This document shows positions 2,199 through 10,669 of a stretch of 64,000 nucleotides of DNA, piece by piece. The notes under the pieces were generated by a model. The model had not been told where the DNA came from. It worked only from the letters and a program-made list of their open reading frames with translations, and did not search any database. Source of the stretch: Oscillospiraceae bacterium (GTDB taxonomy: Bacteria; Bacillota; Clostridia; Oscillospirales; CAG-272); NCBI GenBank assembly GCA_015064155.1, contig SVST01000002.1:62001-126000 (forward strand), given 5' to 3'. A program made the translations under genes and the position numbers. Every line of letters begins with the position of its first letter. Within the stretch, counting starts at the first letter, position 1.

Positions 2199-2628
2199 TT
2201 ACTCTACCAACCCATACTTCACCTTAATACGATCCATCTTTTCAAGCATCGGCTCTGCTGCGATCATTAGGAAGATGACCGTGCCAAAGCCGTGGACGAG
2301 ATCCATGGGGAGTCCGGTTACGTAGCACGCGAGAACGGTTTTCCATTTCAGCGTTTCACTTGACATCATGATCGCGGCGGCAGGATTCATGATGCCGCCG
2401 TAAATAATGACGGCGGTGAATGCACCGAACACGGCAAGAGATGCTCTCGTACGGCGAAGCCATCCTTTTTTGAACAGCACTCCTGCAAGAAAGCCGATGA
2501 TGCCCATTGCGAACATCTGCCAAGGTGTCCACGGACCTTGCCCGAAAATCATATTGGAGGTCAGCATCGTCATTGCTCCCACCAAAAATCCAACCTCTCC
2601 GCCAAAGCCGACACCTGCAATGATGGTG
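2199..2628 (-). pseudogene. ECF transporter S component, 5' end missing
   Basis: The frame reading TIIAGVGFGGEVGFLVGAM and onward encodes about 140 residues of a hydrophobic protein with FFGQGPWTPWQ-like and GLPMDLVHGFGT motifs typical of energy-coupling-factor S components that bind vitamins or cobalamin precursors. About the first 60-70 residues (roughly two membrane segments) are missing: at about 2628 the frame meets the DUF4430 gene out of phase and there is a stop just upstream (a TGA overlapping the joint). No start codon with an RBS is present at the remnant's end; the first in-frame ATG-like start at 2585 is internal to the family alignment. It is read as a deletion remnant of the gene that once followed the DUF4430 gene. 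Specificity for a corrinoid is suggested only by the upstream riboswitch. Confidence 0.75.
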
Positions 2629-3390
2629 AGTCACGGTGGTTGGAGCTAAAATGACTCCGTTTGACGGTACAAGCTCTAATTTATCGGGATCAAGGTCGGA
2701 GAGATTGTTCAAAATCGCAGAGCATTCAATCGAAAAGGTACAAGTGTATGTTTTTCCCTTGTTGATCTCTTGATTTTCCGGTTCTACGGGCAAGGGCTTA
2801 CCCTCCGGAACGGGATTGGTCAGATATTTGTCCTGATCTGTCGCACTTCCATCCGAATTTGGACGGTTAGCACCGACACCACTATTCACCTTTGCTTCAT
2901 CGGGAAGTATCAGACAAGCATCCATATACGTATTTACGGGCATATTCAATATGCTCGTTTTGCTTCCCGTGATGGAAACCGATGAAACGGCGGTACCGTC
3001 TTGATACGCACTTGCAGCAAGGGCAGACCACTTTTCATTAAGATGAATCGAAAGAAGCGCGGGAAACCCAAACGCTTCGGTTGCGGCAAAATCGACCTTT
3101 ACGCCACCGTCAGCCTTTTCCAAGGTGACGAGAAGGTTTATATCCTTTATTTCGTGGAGATCACTGCCGAAAATCGTCCATTCATATTCAAGACCGCCCG
3201 ATGCGCCCGTAAAGGTGGCAATGGCATTTTCGGATTTAATTTTGTCGAGCAGCGCTTTTTCTACCACACCGTCCTCGGGAATGGCAACGGGCTTTTGCAA
3301 ATCGACCTTAGCGTAATTGCCTTCACAAGCGCAAAGCGACAGAAGAAGCGAAAATATGATTAAAATTGGGATCAGACGTTTCATTTTCAT
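2356..3390 (-). pseudogene. DUF4430 lipoprotein, truncated and read through into ECF gene
   Basis: The open frame is 344 residues, but only about the first 250 are coherent. It starts with a lipoprotein signal (ILIIFSLLLSLCAC, lipobox Cys near residue 22). Near residues 210-250 it reads KGKTYTCTFSIECSAILNNL and GVILAPTTVT, the opening of a DUF4430 domain (the transcobalamin C-terminal-like family). After about 2634 the sequence turns into HHHCRCRLWRRG, an out-of-frame reading of the neighbouring ECF S component. The rest of DUF4430 is therefore lost. The ATG at 3390 overlaps the stop of the cohesin-like gene (ATGA), showing the two were one operon. A surface-attached ligand-binding role, perhaps for corrinoids, is inferred from family and riboswitch context. 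Confidence 0.75.
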
Positions 3391-3884
3391 TCTCCTATCA
3401 CGATCTTTCCGTTTTTCACGCTCAATGTGTTTGTCGTCATAGCAAGGCTCTCGGTTTCATCCGAGGCGGCAAACACGGCATCCTCTACGATGAGGTCGCA
3501 AACGTCGCCCACGCGAACACTTCCGCGCAAACGGAATTTCAGGCGAAGCACGACATTGTTCTCTTCTGCGAGTAAATCCGCACAAAAGGCGTTTTTGCCG
3601 CCCGTCATATCAAGATACATCACGTTGATCTTTCCCGATTCGTTGCAAGCGGCGGTATGATAGCTCCACTCGGGAAGCGACTGCCCCGAGGTATTGTCAC
3701 TTTTAATAAATACGTTTCCTTCTTCCACACCGAGAAATTCAAGGCGCGAGGCATCGAACGCAATGCTCATACTCGCAGCGGGATAGATCGCGTCGCCAAA
3801 GGAGGAAATCGTCACGTCCAGCACGAACGTATCCGTGTCGGATATGCTTAATTTTTGCGGTGTTTCCACCGTCAAGGTAGGCAC
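3387..3884 (-). pseudogene. Cohesin-like domain fragment lacking its signal sequence
   Basis: About 165 residues of a beta-rich extracellular domain: VTISSFGDAIYPAASMSIAF, then ASRLEFLGVEEGNVF and a C-terminal segment GDVCDLIVEDAVFAASDE. The pattern (hydrophobic strand, FD..RLE..GV, late strand with V.DA.FA) resembles type I cohesin / cohesin-domain surface proteins. The first possible start is a GTG at 3884 with no ribosome binding site, and there is no signal peptide, so the 5' end seems to be missing. It abuts the homing-endonuclease-repeat gene in a different frame. It overlaps the DUF4430 lipoprotein start by 4 bases. Whether the fragment is still translated is doubtful. Confidence 0.6.
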
Positions 3885-4072
3885 GGCGGCTTGATGCCTG
3901 CAGCTTCAAGCGCACGCGGCCACTGTCCGAGAAAGGCTTTGATCGCCACCCCCTCGCGCTCCTCAAAATCCGAACGCTGAGGATATCTGTCGATGCCCTG
4001 CGCTTGCAATGCTTCATATTTTTCATTCAGAAGAACCAAACAATCGTCCTTATGATATTTTCGATCCGACAT
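3872..4072 (-). pseudogene. Homing-endonuclease-associated repeat protein, 3' end missing
   Basis: A 66-residue frame, MSDRKYHKDDCLVLLNEKYE onward, ending ALEAAGIKPP then three foreign residues and a stop. The segment RYPQRSDFEEREGVAIKAFL / GQWPRALEAAGIKPP is the homing-endonuclease-associated repeat seen in small Clostridia proteins, which normally continue with a basic tail after GIKPP. Here the homology stops at about 3887, where the cohesin-like sequence begins in another frame. It is the first gene after the cobalamin riboswitch leader, 16 bases beyond the terminator T-run. The upstream sequence CGAAGG is only a weak RBS. Confidence 0.6.
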
Positions 4073-4087
4073 CTAACCTTCGAAATA

Positions 4088-4123
4088 CAAAAAACGCCTT
4101 TTACCGTCAAAACGGTAAAAAGC
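4088..4123 (-). terminator. Intrinsic terminator of the cobalamin riboswitch leader
   Basis: A 12-bp stem (4096-4107 with 4112-4123, near-perfect) with a 4-base loop, followed on the minus strand by six T (4089-4094). An upstream strand at 4175-4185 can pair instead with 4118-4128, which overlaps one arm of this hairpin. Terminator and alternative hairpin are thus mutually exclusive, the usual design of a transcriptional riboswitch. Confidence 0.7.
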
Positions 4124-4233
4124 GTAGCTATCTCGTCAAAAATGGGCATGGTAATCCCAACGCTTGACAAAACGGCTACGCTTTTCATATCCAAAAACGT
4201 TGTGCGCTGAACGCACGTACCTTCGCTTGTGCT

Positions 4234-4338
4234 TGGTGAGTATTCCGACTTAAGAATGCCGAAGCATTCAATTACGGTAATGATGGTTGCGACGGAGTTG
4301 CACCGAACTTCCCCCTAATCCGCGCGAAGCGGAACCAA
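4234..4338 (-). ncRNA. Cobalamin riboswitch (short variant)
   Basis: On the minus strand the core reads GGGGGAAGTTCGGTGCAACT then CCGTCGCAACC, matching the cobalamin riboswitch core pattern GGGAA..CGGTG.AA.TCCG..GC. It ends with AAGTCGGAATACTCACC, matching the conserved 3' element AAGTC.GGATAC.TGCC. A closing stem can form from TTGGT (4338-4334) and ACCAA (4238-4234). At about 105 nt it is short compared with the ~200 nt class, resembling compact cobalamin riboswitch variants. It is followed by a terminator/antiterminator pair and precedes the homing-repeat, cohesin-like, DUF4430 and ECF-S remnants. Repression by a corrinoid is the family expectation. Confidence 0.8.
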
Positions 4339-4366
4339 TCTGCGAAATCCTATTCAATTCTCAAGT

Positions 4367-4395
4367 ATTATATCATAAAATGCTGATTTTGTCAA
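4367..4395 (-). promoter_or_regulatory. Sigma-A-type promoter for the riboswitch transcript
   Basis: Consensus TTGACA (4395-4390) and TATAAT (4372-4367) separated by exactly 17 bp, on the minus strand, about 30 bases ahead of the riboswitch closing stem. Confidence 0.85.
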
Positions 4396-4562
4396 TGGAC
4401 TGTCACAATTTTGGGACAACACTGCCACAATTTTGGAACAAACCCATGATCATTTTGATTTTCGGCAAAACAAATTCAGCTTTTTTATGATAGCATAGCG
4501 TGATTGGATATTCAATACACAAAACGACTTTGTTTTTACATAATTCAACAGCCCAAGAAACA

Positions 4563-4601
4563 GAAAAATACGAGAAACACCGAAATGTTCTCGTATTTTT
4601 C
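4563..4601 (-). terminator. Terminator of the carbohydrate ABC operon
   Basis: A 13-bp perfect stem, AAAAATACGAGAA (4564-4576) with TTCTCGTATTTTT (4588-4600), gives a T-run on the minus strand about 95 bases after the last permease stop. A second hairpin, GTTCTTAA / TTAAGAAC (4622-4652), lies between it and the gene. The rest of 4396-4693 holds no gene that I can support. Confidence 0.75.
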
Positions 4602-4693
4602 TTCGGCTTCGCAATGCTCGCCGTTCTTAATTCTCAAAGCAATCCTTAAGAACGAAGCATCCGGAAGCTTCTGTATTGTATTTTTTGAATTGC

Positions 4694-5881
4694 TTAGTTT
4701 GCAATACCCGAGTGCTCGATACCTTGTACCAAGAATCTCTGGCAGAAGGCGTACAAGACAACCAACGGGAATATGATCATTAGACCACACGTGTTCTTAA
4801 TCGCCGATTCGTAAATTGCCTGCCCCTCGAACGAGCTGTCCTGCAAGGATACAGGCACCTCTACAATCTGTGACAGTAGCTTCGTTTCTGACGACGTGAT
4901 AAACATTTGCGTGTAGAAGGTGTCGGTCCACTGCCAGCAGAACGCGAACAGGAATACCGTAATCATCATCGGCACGGACAGAGGCAGAATGATCTGCATG
5001 AAGGTACGGAAGGTACCCGAGCCGTCCATATATGCCGACTCCTCCAACTCGTCGGGAATGCCACGGAAGAACTGACGCAACAAGAAAATGTAAAGTCCGT
5101 TCTTGAATGCCAAACCGGTCAACGAAAGCAAAATCATCGGGAAATAGGTTTCGCAAAGGTCGATACCGTTTTCGGATACTGCCATTGCCACCTTCCAACG
5201 CGTTGCTCCGCGCGACGTAATGTACTGACCCCACTTGATTTCGTCGGGCAGAACGTCAAGGTTTTCGAAGAAATCAGCAACGCCGGGACCAATATCCTTC
5301 ACGTTCCAACCAAAGATCTGAATTCCGCCACCCTTGAGCAAGCGTACGATACCCAGAACGTCGAATTCGGAGAATTTGGTGAACATGGAAAGCTGGAGCG
5401 TTTGGTGAGGAACCACCATGGTCAGCATAACCAGCATAAAGATAATGTTTCTTCCTCTGAACTTAAACTTTGCAAATCCGTAACCAACCAAGCAACAAAT
5501 AAAGGTTTGAATGATGGCGGTGGTAAACGAAAGTGTAAAGGTGTTCATGAATGCATCCCAGTAGTCCAAATCGGTGATGATGGCTCGGTAGGTGTCCAGC
5601 GTAAAGTGCTTGGGAATCAAGCGTACCGTTACGTCAACAAAATCCTCGGGAGCCATGACCGAACCAACGATCTTGGTAATAAACGGGAACAAAACCACGT
5701 AGGAAATACCGATCAGAAGCACCAATCGGAAAATCCAAAGCACTACCTTGGCAACAAAGTGGAAGGAAAGGAATTTCGCCTTTAAACGATCTTTCAGCGG
5801 TGTACGGTCAAACTCGACGCGAATTCTGTTCTTCGTTTCGCGCTTGACTCTCGGCTTTTTATCAACATTTTGAGCGTTCAT
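4694..5881 (-). CDS. Carbohydrate ABC transporter permease, MalG-like (second pair)
   Basis: A 395-residue inner-membrane permease with the cytoplasmic EAA loop EESAYMDGSGTFRTFMQIIL followed by PLSVPMM, which docks the ATPase. MalG-type proteins are usually about 275-300 residues; the extra length comes from a roughly 65-residue insertion (about residues 175-240, including GGGIQIFGWNVKDIGPGVAD and EIKWGQYITS) between membrane segments, expected to face outside, plus a longer basic N-terminus. The ATG at 5881 was chosen because GGAGGG sits 8 bases upstream; an in-frame start at 5899 lies inside the preceding gene. It is the last gene of the operon and overlaps nothing. The ATPase must be supplied from elsewhere (MsmX/MsmK-type sharing is known in Firmicutes). 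Confidence 0.88.
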   Translation of the reverse strand: MNAQNVDKKPRVKRETKNRIRVEFDRTPLKDRLKAKFLSFHFVAKVVLWIFRLVLLIGISYVVLFPFITKIVGSVMAPEDFVDVTVRLIPKHFTLDTYRAIITDLDYWDAFMNTFTLSFTTAIIQTFICCLVGYGFAKFKFRGRNIIFMLVMLTMVVPHQTLQLSMFTKFSEFDVLGIVRLLKGGGIQIFGWNVKDIGPGVADFFENLDVLPDEIKWGQYITSRGATRWKVAMAVSENGIDLCETYFPMILLSLTGLAFKNGLYIFLLRQFFRGIPDELEESAYMDGSGTFRTFMQIILPLSVPMMITVFLFAFCWQWTDTFYTQMFITSSETKLLSQIVEVPVSLQDSSFEGQAIYESAIKNTCGLMIIFPLVVLYAFCQRFLVQGIEHSGIAN

Positions 5882-5895
5882 CGTTTTCCCTCCTC

Positions 5896-6867
5896 TCAAT
5901 CATTCTTGCGTTGGTAGAATACGAACGCAGACAGCACCGATGCAATAATTGCAACGATCAAAATTACGATCACGAAGTAAATCCATGCCATTGCAGAACT
6001 CAAAATGTCATTTTCCTTATATACACCGGAAATAAACGACATAACGGGGTTACTTGCAACGGTGAACGAGTCGATAATGGTATAAACACCGTTTACCAAA
6101 ATCATCGGGCTGATCATCGGGAAGGTAATCTTCCAGAAGGTTTCCCAAGCGGTTGCACCGTCGATCTTACAAGACTCGTAGATCGCGGGAGAAATCGATT
6201 GCAGACCCGCCAGGAAGATCAGCATCTGTACGCCCGAACGGTTTACAATATTGAAGATGTTGTTAACCGCCTGAACGACGTAATTGACAACGCCGGTTCC
6301 GACCTTCATGGAACTAAACAGCACCTGGAAGTCCATTGCGGAAACCAAGTCGTTCGATGCACTCTGTCCGCTACCGTCATCAATCGATTCACTCATCGTG
6401 TCACTCAAAATGTTCTGCGCCTCAATCGTTTCCATAATACCCGTGGAAAGAACGACGGGAATAAAGAAGATTGCACGGAACAGGCCTCTGCCTGCCGCCT
6501 TTTGATTCAGCATAACTGCCATAAACAGCGAGAAAATCAAAATGGCGGGCAGGTCAAATGCCAAGGACTTCAAACCGTTAATCAATACCTCAACGAACGT
6601 TTGACCCGACGTCGTGGTATAAGTCAGAATTGCTTCCTTATAGTTTGCCAATCCTACAAAGTTGTACTTGAATTCACCCTTGACGTTTACCATCTCTCCA
6701 AAGCTAAGATAGATGGATTCATAAATCATCGGCAGGTAAATTACCAAGAAACCGATCAAAAACGGCAGGATGAAGAACCATCCGGAGCGTGATTTGCGGC
6801 GATCCAAGGAGGCAATTTTTCTACTCTTCGGTGCTTTTACCGATTTCATAGTCACATCTTTTGTCAT
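5896..6867 (-). CDS. Carbohydrate ABC transporter permease, MalF-like (second pair)
   Basis: A 323-residue permease with the EAA loop YESCKIDGATAWETFWKITF then PMISPMI. The N-terminus is basic (about 28 residues) before the first membrane segment FILPFLIGFLVIYLPMIYES. Between the third and fourth membrane segments is an unusual hydrophilic insertion of about 60 residues (IEAQNILSDTMSESIDDGSG onward) that should be extracytoplasmic. It forms the second permease pair with the gene that follows, whose start lies 14 bases after this stop. Both permeases of this pair carry insertions, unlike the pair at 12849-14670, so the two pairs are probably not interchangeable. Confidence 0.87.
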   Translation of the reverse strand: MTKDVTMKSVKAPKSRKIASLDRRKSRSGWFFILPFLIGFLVIYLPMIYESIYLSFGEMVNVKGEFKYNFVGLANYKEAILTYTTTSGQTFVEVLINGLKSLAFDLPAILIFSLFMAVMLNQKAAGRGLFRAIFFIPVVLSTGIMETIEAQNILSDTMSESIDDGSGQSASNDLVSAMDFQVLFSSMKVGTGVVNYVVQAVNNIFNIVNRSGVQMLIFLAGLQSISPAIYESCKIDGATAWETFWKITFPMISPMILVNGVYTIIDSFTVASNPVMSFISGVYKENDILSSAMAWIYFVIVILIVAIIASVLSAFVFYQRKND

Positions 6868-6886: not shown

Positions 6887-9800
6887 TCAATCGTGATAAA
6901 CCACAACGTAACCGCCTCGAGGAATGGTGTACGTAACGCCCTCATATTCAACCACTACAGCGTAGCTGTTGTAGTTCAGAATAAACGACTTATACGCTTC
7001 CTTTTCCTGCGTCTTATCGTTGCGATCACCGTAGGTTACGATTACGATCTGCTTGTTATCCGAAACGAAGCGATCGTCAGCGTCACCCGTGTTGTCGTTG
7101 GGTCCGTCATTGGTGTCCTCGTCGGTAATATTACCGGCTGCCAGGATATCCTCCTTGGTGAACAAAGCATCCTTACATGCTTCCAAAAGGCTTTCGTTCT
7201 CTTCCAAATCATCTGCCTTCACAACTGCCAGTGCCGCGATCACCTTATCAACGACGTATTTTTCATCGCCTTCGGTGATATACATCTGGTTATTCTCAGC
7301 TTCCTTAACTGCCTTATCCTCGAAGAGCTTACGTGCCTGTGCGTAGTAGGTTTGGATTGCGGAAATCATATCCTGCTTGGTTTTTTCGGAAAGATCGGAC
7401 TCGCGAATCAAATCTACCGAATCAGCCACAGACTCCAGAAGAGCCAGACCCTCGTCATACAGCTTCATCTTGAGTGCATTGTTCTCAACAACCGTACTGG
7501 AAAGTGCATACAAGTTGTTCAGGTATACTACCAGATCCTTGGTTGCCTGTGCTGCGGGCAATGCCTCAATCTTGTTACCCTTCTTATCGTAGCGGTCACG
7601 CATCAGCAGCAACGCATCGTTAACCTCTGCTTCCAATCCGGGCAATTTCTTATCCAGCTGGTTTGCATTTGCAGCGATCAAGCGGTTCAAGTCTTCCATC
7701 TCGGTAATTATTTCGGTAATCGAAGCAACGGCATTCTCTGCAGTCTGCCAAGCGTTTGCAATCTTCAGCAAGCGTTCGGTAATCAAAGCCTGCTGTGCAG
7801 CGGTTTCCTTATCGGCAGCATCCTTCAGCTGCTCCTTCAGCTCAGCCTCAAGCTCATCCAAATCCAGGATACGAGTACCGGTCAAGAAATCGTGGTCGAT
7901 AATCACCTTATCCTGAACGTCTTTCAACAGTCCGTTCAATTCCGTATAGTAGGAAATCACGTCTTCCTTCCAAATATCATAACGTACCGAGTAATATTGG
8001 CTCAAATCAACAAATTCCTTGAGCTCACTGGTGTTCTGATAAGAAAGGATGAAGTAGAGCGAAGCACCGTTTTCCAATGCGCGAAGCATTGCGTAATCGG
8101 TATCACCCTCCTCGTTGAAGGGAGCACCCGCAAACTGTACGTAGCCGTGCAATACGACACCGATAAAGGGTACCGAAACGCTTGCCTTGATGTGACGGCT
8201 CGAATCGAGGTCAACGTTGAGAAGATGATCGACGTAGCCCCACGTATAAGCATTTGCGTTTTCGGTCATCAGGCTGTAGCCTGCGTTGCGAATATCGCTG
8301 AATGCCTCAACGGTGAACTTCTTACTATCCTCGCGGTTGTAAGGATCGTCCTCATCAAAGTCGGAGTTCAACGCACTACCCAACGAACCGAGCGACATCG
8401 ACTTCAATTCGTAATCGTCGTAGTTCTTGAGCAGCTTGGTGTAGAACTTGCTGTAACGGGAAGGCGAAATTGCAAGCTGATAGAAGCTTACGTATGCCTG
8501 CGAAGTAGAGCTGTACTGACGCTTGGAGGAGTAACGGTTATCAATGGTCTTAACCGCGTCCTTCTTCAGGTTCGTGCTGTCGAACAGCGTATTTCTTTCG
8601 ACGTATGCAAAGTCGAAATCGGGATACAGACCGATATGCTCACCGTCGATCGTGTTGATTGCATTCGCACGGTCGATGAGTGCGCGGAAGCCCGATGCGC
8701 CGCCTACGTTCTTTTCCCACTTCAAGGATGCGGGAACGGTAGCGTTACCCAAGCCGCCGTTTGCAAAGCCGGTCATCTTAAAGTTAATGTTCTTAACGCC
8801 CTCTGCGGAAAGCTCCTTATACATCGTCAGAATGTTATCAAAGGTCGTTAAAGGAGTCATAACGTCCATCGGAATGGTAGCAATCTGCTTCTGCGTTTCC
8901 ACAGCGCCGAACACTTCCATATACAACGGAATGTTTTCCTCCAAATCGGTTTCGGTCAGCTTGGTCAAGGTACCGTTTTCAACCAAATAATCACGGTATG
9001 CCTCTGCCATGCCAAACCAAGAGGTTTCATAATACGTGTAATCCTCTTCGTCAACCAAGCTTGCTGCCTTTTCGTCGGTCAGCATCAAGTAAGAGATCGT
9101 AATGTTTCCGGTATACTTACGTTCGGAAACGACGGTCCACTTACCGCTGGTAGAAACCGAAAGCGAATCCGCTACGTCGTAGGAGTCCTTCGGCTTCGGG
9201 TTGAAGTAGTTACGGATATAGTTATAATCGTTGGTCAAACCGCCGTGACAGGTTTCAATCTTCGCCAGCGATTCACCCTCCTTAATGATGGCAACGTATC
9301 CGCGCTGCTGCTTGGAGGTGGAAACACCGCCGGGCAGCATCGCACCGCCGTCATAGGAGTTCACGTATTCCTCGATCTTATCATACTGAACGATCGTGTT
9401 GGAAACGGTTTCGGTAACGGTTTCGGATCCGGTTGTGGGCTTTCCGTTGGAGTCCAGCTTGGTTCTGTCATACGAGAAAGTATGCAGAACTTCCTCGGAA
9501 ACGATACCGTATACGGGATAGCGAACCACCTTTTGGCTCTTTTCGGTAGCCACGTTCAATTCGTGGTACGCATAGTCGGCGCCGTAAATCTGCGCGCTGA
9601 TGTAGGTCGGGTTACCGATATCAAGCTTATTGAAGTCGAACAACTCACCTGCACCGTCGGGGAAGAAGGTATATCCCTCGTTGTTGCTGTTACCCGCGCC
9701 CATGTAAGGCAGGATACTGATGTTGTTCAAGGAATAAGCCGCCATATCGTAACGCAAGCCGTTACAAGGCATCGTAACGTCAACACCCTTATCGGTCAAG

Positions 9801-10669
9801 GAATACTCCAGTGCCATCTTGAACAGAGGGTACTGTACGATTTCTTCCTCGTATCCGGTTTCTGCGTGGTCGGCATCCATTTGCTCAAAGGTGTATTCAT
9901 CGCAGAAGTTCTTGATGATATTTTCGCAAGTGTTTACGCTTCTTTCGGAATCATTGAACAGGAACACCCAGATATCCATCTGCTCGCAGATCGGATATTC
10001 CTTCAAAAGCTTTTCCTTCTGCTTCTGTCCAGACTTGTTTTCCAAGCTTTCAAACTTGTAGTTTGACATAAACTGGTCGTAGTTAAACTTCGACAGAGTA
10101 CCGCGATCAACCGCAGCCTCCAAGGGCTTTTGAATGTATTTGGTAAAGCTTTCGTTCGAGATCAATCTCGGAACCAGCTTTCTGGTAACCTCTTGACCGA
10201 TCGAGTATTCTATACGAACACCGTTTTTGATCTTCAGAACCTTGATCTGGTCACGCATTGCCGCATCCTTAAAGCTGTACAAGGGGTCTCCCTTACCGGT
10301 CGTAACGTCCTCATACTGTACGATAATCTGCGACATCAGTTGTTTCTTGACATCCTGAGAGCCCTTCTTGGTGCCTGCGATATCATAGGGGTTGCTGAAG
10401 AGGATATCACCCGTGCGGGTGTCCTTGGTTGCAACCTCACCGCTGATTTTATCAACGTAAAGCTCGTAACCGCTACGGCTAAACATCAACTCCATGCTTG
10501 CAAGCTTTTCTTCGGGCGTTTTATACACCGTCGTTTTGGTGTAGGTGTTAAAATCCGTTTCTTCAACCGCCTCTGCCGCCGATACACCGACGGAAGTAAA
10601 TACGGTAAACGCACTCAACAACATAAGAACAGCCAAGAATGTCGAAAGTATTCTATTAAAAATTTTCAT
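6887..10669 (-). CDS. DUF5696-type secreted protein of sugar ABC operons
   Basis: A 1260-residue exported protein with a cleavable signal peptide (residues 1 to about 31, ending GVSAAEA) and no lipobox. Mixed alpha/beta sequence in the middle (about residues 560-930) includes HIGLYPDFDFAYV and ENANAYTWGYVDHLL and has the look of a glycosidase-like TIM barrel, with candidate acidic residues but no motif I can assign. A helical, coiled-coil-like section follows (about 950-1170), and the last 60 residues (IVIVTYGDRNDKTQEKEAYK to the C-terminus) form a small beta domain. Proteins annotated DUF5696 recur beside sugar permeases in Clostridia. The start has AAGGAGG 8 bases upstream. Function unknown; polysaccharide binding or cleavage is a guess from context. 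Confidence 0.75.
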   Translation of the reverse strand: MKIFNRILSTFLAVLMLLSAFTVFTSVGVSAAEAVEETDFNTYTKTTVYKTPEEKLASMELMFSRSGYELYVDKISGEVATKDTRTGDILFSNPYDIAGTKKGSQDVKKQLMSQIIVQYEDVTTGKGDPLYSFKDAAMRDQIKVLKIKNGVRIEYSIGQEVTRKLVPRLISNESFTKYIQKPLEAAVDRGTLSKFNYDQFMSNYKFESLENKSGQKQKEKLLKEYPICEQMDIWVFLFNDSERSVNTCENIIKNFCDEYTFEQMDADHAETGYEEEIVQYPLFKMALEYSLTDKGVDVTMPCNGLRYDMAAYSLNNISILPYMGAGNSNNEGYTFFPDGAGELFDFNKLDIGNPTYISAQIYGADYAYHELNVATEKSQKVVRYPVYGIVSEEVLHTFSYDRTKLDSNGKPTTGSETVTETVSNTIVQYDKIEEYVNSYDGGAMLPGGVSTSKQQRGYVAIIKEGESLAKIETCHGGLTNDYNYIRNYFNPKPKDSYDVADSLSVSTSGKWTVVSERKYTGNITISYLMLTDEKAASLVDEEDYTYYETSWFGMAEAYRDYLVENGTLTKLTETDLEENIPLYMEVFGAVETQKQIATIPMDVMTPLTTFDNILTMYKELSAEGVKNINFKMTGFANGGLGNATVPASLKWEKNVGGASGFRALIDRANAINTIDGEHIGLYPDFDFAYVERNTLFDSTNLKKDAVKTIDNRYSSKRQYSSTSQAYVSFYQLAISPSRYSKFYTKLLKNYDDYELKSMSLGSLGSALNSDFDEDDPYNREDSKKFTVEAFSDIRNAGYSLMTENANAYTWGYVDHLLNVDLDSSRHIKASVSVPFIGVVLHGYVQFAGAPFNEEGDTDYAMLRALENGASLYFILSYQNTSELKEFVDLSQYYSVRYDIWKEDVISYYTELNGLLKDVQDKVIIDHDFLTGTRILDLDELEAELKEQLKDAADKETAAQQALITERLLKIANAWQTAENAVASITEIITEMEDLNRLIAANANQLDKKLPGLEAEVNDALLLMRDRYDKKGNKIEALPAAQATKDLVVYLNNLYALSSTVVENNALKMKLYDEGLALLESVADSVDLIRESDLSEKTKQDMISAIQTYYAQARKLFEDKAVKEAENNQMYITEGDEKYVVDKVIAALAVVKADDLEENESLLEACKDALFTKEDILAAGNITDEDTNDGPNDNTGDADDRFVSDNKQIVIVTYGDRNDKTQEKEAYKSFILNYNSYAVVVEYEGVTYTIPRGGYVVVYHD

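Follow-up and report, generated by a model that had tools for sequence, protein, structure and literature searches.

A probable remnant of a cobalamin-riboswitch-controlled operon for corrinoid capture and import in an Oscillospiraceae bacterium

Bacterial scavenging of vitamin B12 by transcobalamin-like proteins is known as a prediction. Burroughs et al. 2007 (PMC1796856) predicted it for bacterial toroid-SLBB proteins in CbiO/CbiQ operons, and the parts of that paper at hand describe the same secreted toroid and beta-grasp proteins as found here, often with a second SLBB protein, in predicted operons that also encode, as here, an ATPase resembling CbiO and a membrane protein resembling CbiQ. 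No riboswitch, dockerin, cohesin, ECF or S component is mentioned in those parts of its text. A sequence-only reading of the present locus had called such a system little-described, which does not hold in view of that prediction. In the portion of PMC4350170 at hand, DUF4430 is the name used for the C-terminal domain of the animal carriers, and the available part of PMC5997447 presents ECF-CbrT, likewise an ECF-type transporter, with vitamin B12 as its substrate. For the riboswitch link and the dockerin version (L067, L071) reported in this study, no account was found among the matches listed in searches of open-licence PMC papers; the accessible parts of PMC4285132, PMC5640608 and PMC2667541 hold no description of a riboswitch-toroid-DUF4430-ECF system, and PMC10553843 was rejected, as the part at hand concerns adhesins and not B12.

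In this study, the window, that is, the whole stretch of 64,000 nucleotides taken from contig SVST01000002.1 of an Oscillospiraceae genome, was analysed. We observed a locus that is very probably the remnant of a cobalamin-riboswitch-controlled operon for the capture and import of B12 or another corrinoid, a reading drawn from the riboswitch, the gene order in relatives, the domain identities, the predicted fold of one relative's protein, and deletions relative to two relatives. These two are L071, from genome G017 of the same genus, and L067, from genome G070 of another family. The gene remnants and the deletion junctions, in the order of the operon, are as follows.

3875..4072, minus strand: gene for a small HNH_repeat protein, truncated, 66 aa (25.3 bits with PF18780, slightly below the cut-off of 26)
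3879..3886, no strand: deletion junction 1 (blastn; L067 carries about 3.9 kb more)
3390..3884, minus strand: cohesin domain lacking the start and the hydrophobic N-terminal segment that L071 and L067 have (PF00963 28.1 bits, cut-off 24.1)
2634..3390, minus strand: gene with a lipoprotein-like start (by eye), ending just inside DUF4430; 78% identical to L071 over 252 aa
2627..2633, no strand: deletion junction 2 (blastn; L067 carries about 3.4 kb more)
2202..2630, minus strand: ECF transporter S component, C-terminal 143 residues (PF07155 31.4 bits, cut-off 26.7)

The surface domain and the ECF S component that had been recognised from the sequence alone are both borne out by Pfam scores over cut-off, only 143 residues of the latter being left. 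The DUF4430 assignment stands in part: the intact L067 homologue of the window lipoprotein matches PF14478 (DUF4430) at its C-terminus with 56.0 bits, whereas the remnant itself matched no family in a Pfam search, since it stops shortly past the domain start. The HNH_repeat piece, an addition to the sequence-only reading, sits between the window riboswitch and the cohesin piece, is 71% identical over 63 aa to its counterparts in L035 and L041, and its frame stops just past junction 1. An HNH_repeat small-protein gene behind a B12 riboswitch was noticed in the window, in L035, L041 and L067, and in about 20 of L081-L160. The cohesin piece is 90-91% identical to the 206-aa cohesin of G017, and its dN/dS of 0.085 against that protein indicates purifying selection, which fits a recent loss. 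The S piece is 82% identical to L067 (G070) and L068 (G238) over 143 aa, with dN/dS against L068 saturated, while dN/dS of the lipoprotein against L071 is unusable because L071 carries an in-frame stop there. This stop of G017 (L071, about 5180) lies in the linker of the DUF4430 lipoprotein and reflects either decay or a sequencing error. A comparison of P0003 with PDB sequences gave no match at E <= 0.1. Genes for EcfT and EcfA are absent from the window locus and present in L035, L041, L067, L069, L070 and L072. The tested neighbours of the locus are unrelated to it: one flank carries genes for a MatE transporter and a methyltransferase, the other flank genes for an ABC permease and for a DUF5696 protein.

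The damage already suspected from the sequence is confirmed as two internal deletions relative to L067 and L071. By blastn, window 4345-3885 corresponds to L067rc 273-709 (71%) and window 3886-3389 to L067rc 4638-5144, so that junction 1, as compared with L067, has lost a second riboswitch together with the gene for the toroid-dockerin protein and the beginning of the cohesin gene. Again, window 2858-2651 corresponds to L067rc 6243-6450 and window 2627-2199 to L067rc 9839-10267, which places the loss of the rest of DUF4430, EcfT, EcfA and the first part of EcfS, relative to L067, at junction 2. G017 (L071) matches the window from 3879 down to 2630 at 80% identity. Judged by eye, the junctions share a few bases, about 4 at junction 2. 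Lacking EcfT, EcfA, the toroid protein, the greater part of DUF4430 and the leading part of EcfS, the system cannot work as it stands, and the copy in the window is probably dead.

It is unlikely that both deletions are assembly or binning errors of this metagenome-assembled genome and that the living organism has an intact operon. Such an error would agree with a genome in 29 contigs that is 86% complete, with remaining pieces that are open, the cohesin piece being under the purifying selection mentioned above, and with the presence of the undeleted front part in G017 of the same genus. However, the bases shared at the junctions are too few for the usual k-mer mis-join, one 174-kb contig holds both junctions, EcfT (PF02361) occurs once in the genome, at C28, and there is no second copy of P0001 or P0003 in the genome.

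What the operon looks like when complete can be seen in the relatives, where it encodes an alpha/alpha-toroid, DUF4430, EcfT, EcfA and EcfS. Within the genus, the G011 operon begins with a riboswitch and an HNH_repeat gene (20.0 bits, short of the Pfam threshold of 26); DUF2284 comes next, then a lipoprotein-like protein of 496 aa, a 543-aa protein joining toroid and DUF4430, EcfT, a double EcfA and finally EcfS. In G025 the riboswitch is followed by HNH_repeat, a toroid-DUF4430 protein (526 aa), EcfT, EcfA and EcfS. G017 resembles the window type most closely; its locus, which runs into a contig end on either side, has the order part of DUF2284, riboswitch, toroid-dockerin (1078 aa), cohesin (206 aa), DUF4430 lipoprotein and EcfT. 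G070 (L067), from another family, has the same parts as G017, with two riboswitches and with EcfA fused to EcfS. Its riboswitches, at 15738-15610 and 15175-15028, flank the HNH_repeat gene ahead of one operon, and its reverse-strand frame 7622-10267 fuses EcfA, EcfA' and EcfS in 881 aa. In G022 the toroid and DUF4430 are separate genes followed by EcfT, EcfA and EcfS, and no riboswitch match was found for that operon; a gene order related to that of the window locus was also noticed in G020 and G034. Intact loci behind a riboswitch with related gene order, which the sequence-only reading had anticipated, therefore exist in G011 and G025 of the genus and in G070 of another family. Its parts list of surface domain, lipoprotein and S component was found but proved incomplete, as the full system adds a toroid receptor, EcfT and EcfA, and some loci add HNH_repeat, DUF2284 or dockerin. 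By family models, EcfS resembles riboflavin and folate S components, and NCBIfam holds no B12-specific name for it.

The resemblance to the animal carriers extends beyond DUF4430. PF14478 scored 56-69 bits in the intact relatives L035, L041, L067 and L081, while the Pfam toroid was over cut-off in L035 (30.0 against 26.1) and L152 (30.2 against 26.5), under cut-off in L071, L067 and L081, and without a match in L041. The toroid-DUF4430 protein of L081 (5980-7539), the sole protein modelled, was predicted by AlphaFold from an alignment of 41 homologues with a mean pLDDT of 90.1 and a pTM of 0.72; His265, a candidate cobalt ligand, is invariant in this alignment. In a Foldseek search of this model against the PDB, ranks 1-15 were all transcobalamins (human, bovine, rat), intrinsic factor and haptocorrin, with E from 2.3e-9 to 3.4e-7 over 521-546 alignment columns and with both domains covered; terpene cyclases followed after rank 15, and the bacterial 3u7z (Ruminococcus gnavus) was matched as well (E 1.8e-3). 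Whole-chain TM-scores to the animal carriers were moderate, 0.36-0.44 by query length, probably due to a different domain placement and to the two extra membrane-type helices which L081 has between its domains. The link between DUF4430 and transcobalamin is hence stronger than had been proposed from the sequence, as the toroid is also encoded and the first 15 matches of L081 are animal carriers.

From these parts we infer that the operon proteins bind and import B12 or another corrinoid. A receptor at the surface, combining the two transcobalamin domains (alpha/alpha toroid and DUF4430 beta-grasp), would close around the corrinoid, and in the window lineage the toroid would be attached to the cell surface via dockerin and cohesin, beside the DUF4430 lipoprotein. 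The receptor would hand the corrinoid to a dedicated ECF transporter, in which EcfS may take it while EcfT and the double EcfA ATPase drive import. The B12 capture system suggested by the sequence-only reading is supported by the riboswitch-linked intact loci and by the predicted transcobalamin-like fold. It is quite improbable that the substrate is instead another cobalamin-regulated compound, such as cobalt, cobinamide or another tetrapyrrole. EcfT matches CbiQ (PF02361), cobalt transport genes also stand under cobalamin riboswitches according to the part of PMC3766115 at hand, and a reviewer cautioned, in the available part of PMC1796856, that the ligands of the clade may be broader, but both domains of the predicted receptor find their match in the three cobalamin carriers of animals, and a B12-dependent MetH is encoded by the host genome.

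The control region of the operon lies ahead of the gene remnants, with the following features.

4218..4354, minus strand: cobalamin riboswitch aptamer with short P6 arm and intact core (RF00174 26.1 bits, own model R1 124.4 bits, covariation in the sister set)
4121..4182, minus strand: long hairpin 3' of the aptamer, possible antiterminator; alone it folds at -29.6 kcal/mol
4089..4125, minus strand: intrinsic-terminator-like hairpin, then a U run; the segment containing the hairpin folds at -25.6 kcal/mol

At gathering scores, Rfam returned no match of any family in the whole 64-kb window, and RF00174 applied to 4000-4600 remained below its gathering score of 31.5 (E 1.1e-4); in a whole-genome RF00174 search, the window element had E 9.4e-5 and was the sole match at E <= 0.001. 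The sister riboswitch of G011 reached 38.3 bits with RF00174. Because Rfam gave nothing at gathering score, a family-specific covariance model, R1, was built from 16 aligned riboswitches of related operons with one structure, the window being excluded. On the 64-kb window, R1 found this element at E 1.9e-33 as the sole match at E <= 10. In the 16 training sequences 85.6% of cells pair and both-side changes occur at 20 of the 29 pairs, counts that lean towards the R1 structure since it was hand-fitted on those same sequences. On each of the five measures, all 500 shuffles of this set fell short of the observed value, and pairing dropped to 34-52% when the partners were slid. The window element shares its conserved core and pairing with the riboswitches of homologous operons, as captured by R1, and retains the core of the sister riboswitches nearly letter for letter. 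The riboswitch of the window is real and not a product of chance. The short cobalamin riboswitch with conserved core, first read at 4234-4338, is thereby upheld on the minus strand at 4354-4218. The lack of an Rfam hit above threshold speaks on paper against it, but is overturned by the 124.4 bits of a model from which the window had been left out. It is hardly credible that chance similarity or a dead relic lies behind the riboswitch-like sequence, given that its score under the Rfam cut-off and the broken genes behind it are outweighed by the R1 E-value, the almost literal retention of the sister core and the terminator-like hairpin found there.

A direction of control can be proposed for the leader. 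Under low corrinoid, the leader would be read through and the receptor and transporter made; with plentiful cobalamin, the bound aptamer would favour termination and switch the operon off. A hairpin with a T run behind it and a folding energy of -12 kcal/mol or lower was detected in 43 of 52 leaders (the window, five relatives and 46 of the 80 loci described below, the best 80 of at least 569) against 34 of 104 first-order resampled controls, a rough count since the script took the long hairpin of the window and not the one at 4125-4089. A clean terminator/antiterminator switch was considered for the window and rejected: the long hairpin shares only about 5 nt of its 3' end with the terminator arm, and the predicted fold can largely accommodate both hairpins.

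To describe how general the riboswitch link is, genome contigs were scanned with an S-component alignment, which gave at least 569 relatives, of which the best 80 were kept and all examined. These loci were selected by S-component likeness and not by riboswitch, and toroid, DUF4430, EcfT and EcfA were found by our own profile models, seeded from the described relatives. Among these best 80 of at least 569, 58 show the full set, with EcfS lying downstream of toroid, DUF4430, EcfT and EcfA; in 50 of these 58 full operons the toroid and a DUF4430 share one reading frame. A riboswitch stands 238-1866 nt before the first domain in 42 of the 52 full operons with at least 1.5 kb upstream (again from the best 80 of at least 569), so that the check on homologous loci proposed with the sequence-only reading came out in its favour; the other ten (L089, L095, L108, L112, L124, L127, L131, L136, L152 and L158) gave no riboswitch match. 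R1 at E <= 0.005 made 43 matches in the best 80 of at least 569 loci, all on the operon strand; 12 of them are training sequences, and the other 31 of 31 are on the operon strand as well. Since placing whole-genome RF00174 matches on loci from coordinates by themselves is ambiguous, L118, L121 and L085 were the only three added through the mapped RF00174 position, where the sequence showed the core. G034/L070 and L101 are probably one case, as their R1 scores are identical. The riboswitch-linked full operons come mostly from gut and rumen metagenome assemblies. The cultured bacillus Siminovitchia thermophila DSM 105453 (L152) carries a toroid, three DUF4430 genes and an ECF operon; R1 found no riboswitch within the stretch searched, and the genome holds four RF00174 matches.

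The remaining 22 of the best 80 of at least 569 loci are not full operons: 12 have EcfT and EcfA, 6 have EcfA only, and L083, L086, L088 and L139 have neither. In L141, L145 and L156, which belong to the group with EcfT and EcfA, the riboswitch is directly before EcfT. In the same group of 12, DUF4430 was observed in L153, and toroid and DUF4430 after EcfS in L149 and L156. Across the genus, an RF00174 or R1 match on the same strand precedes 22 of 24 PF14478 matches at a distance of 257-4881 nt, one of the 22 (G006) being just under the Pfam cut-off, which sustains the proposed B12 link; those of G022 and G004 have no same-strand cobalamin riboswitch match upstream. Conversely, PF14478 follows within 6 kb downstream for 22 of the 33 riboswitch matches of the genus. 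The 11 others comprise two at contig ends, the one in the window and eight more, two of them in G007 and G019. Behind the other six (G005, G013, G018, G028, G030 and G033) come a small protein that looks secreted and a membrane protein, with no PF14478.

The operon type of the window has a further peculiarity. Cellulosomes are built from cohesin-dockerin pairs, with the dockerin carried on a plant-cell-wall enzyme. In L071 and L067, Dockerin_1 (PF00404; 34.3 and 25.3 bits, all over cut-off) and Cohesin (PF00963; 26.3 and 30.2 bits, cut-off 24.1) occur in adjacent genes, the dockerin of the G017 toroid being C-terminal and of type I, and the 206-aa cohesin of G017 having an N-terminal hydrophobic segment by eye. 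The dockerin region is missing from the window owing to deletion 1. Since the toroid has a dockerin and the adjacent gene a cohesin with a hydrophobic segment, the receptor is probably plugged onto the cell surface, and a pairing of cohesin with dockerin in window-type operons is suggested by their sequences. We put forward, tentatively and as something short of probable, that in some gut Clostridia the toroid of a split transcobalamin docks via its dockerin into a membrane-anchored cohesin, while the DUF4430 lipoprotein completes the clamp and an ECF transporter is fed, all under one cobalamin riboswitch. A dockerin over the Pfam cut-off was also noticed in DUF4430 proteins of the cobalamin-riboswitch operons L137 (4146-5126) and L157 (4413-5468), and L142 (3988-4998) encodes a secreted-looking protein with a type I dockerin in such an operon. 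A narrow cohesin model of our own found no cohesin gene in any of the best 80 of at least 569 loci.

The host genome encodes a B12-dependent MetH with the homocysteine, pterin and both B12 domains, and PF02310 was matched in 32 of the 34 genomes searched, in 28 of them over cut-off. A second module, at G000:C16 (L073 6526-7776), consists of a riboswitch, a short DUF4430 lipoprotein (27.0 bits, over 23.8) and a membrane protein. Its riboswitch scored 49.4 bits with R1 and best with AdoCbl-II RF01689, at 34.2 bits under the cut-off of 36.5. The short membrane protein has no Pfam or NCBIfam match and is, by its look, a candidate S component; our own EcfS model matches its counterparts weakly, in L037 and L043 only. 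C16-like short modules with a 170-200-aa membrane protein were observed in other genus members and are possibly a second, smaller corrinoid uptake unit; five of these membrane proteins gave no Pfam match. With the C16 module and the EcfT at C28 still present, B12 uptake need not have been lost along with the window operon.

Comparatively, the window element agrees with RF00174 and AdoCbl-II RF01689 in its core, its pairing and its position before transport genes, but differs from RF00174 in its short arms and in a score under the cut-off. Animal transcobalamin, intrinsic factor and haptocorrin have the same two-domain fold as predicted for L081, whereas identity in the 15 matches is 11-15%, and the bacterial counterparts carry membrane helices, or are divided among several proteins, and belong to an ECF operon. 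As against ECF-CbrT, the part of PMC5997447 at hand is without DUF4430 or riboswitch and has transcobalamin in its references only. In relation to the system of Burroughs et al. 2007, as far as the available part of PMC1796856 describes it, the present system further has the riboswitch, the S component and a cohesin-dockerin version, and the window copy is deleted twice. What appears to be new, going by open-licence papers, is the riboswitch link and the dockerin version, and the window itself holds a broken copy; the link, present in 42 of 52 full operons among the best 80 of at least 569 loci, makes the 2007 prediction directly testable with named proteins. Finally, L071 and L067 have in common with the cellulosome the Pfam domains of type I dockerin and cohesin, both scoring above cut-off in neighbouring genes, but here the pairing is predicted and it is a toroid protein of a cobalamin-riboswitch operon that bears the dockerin, which would be a new use of the cellulosome building kit, for vitamin capture.
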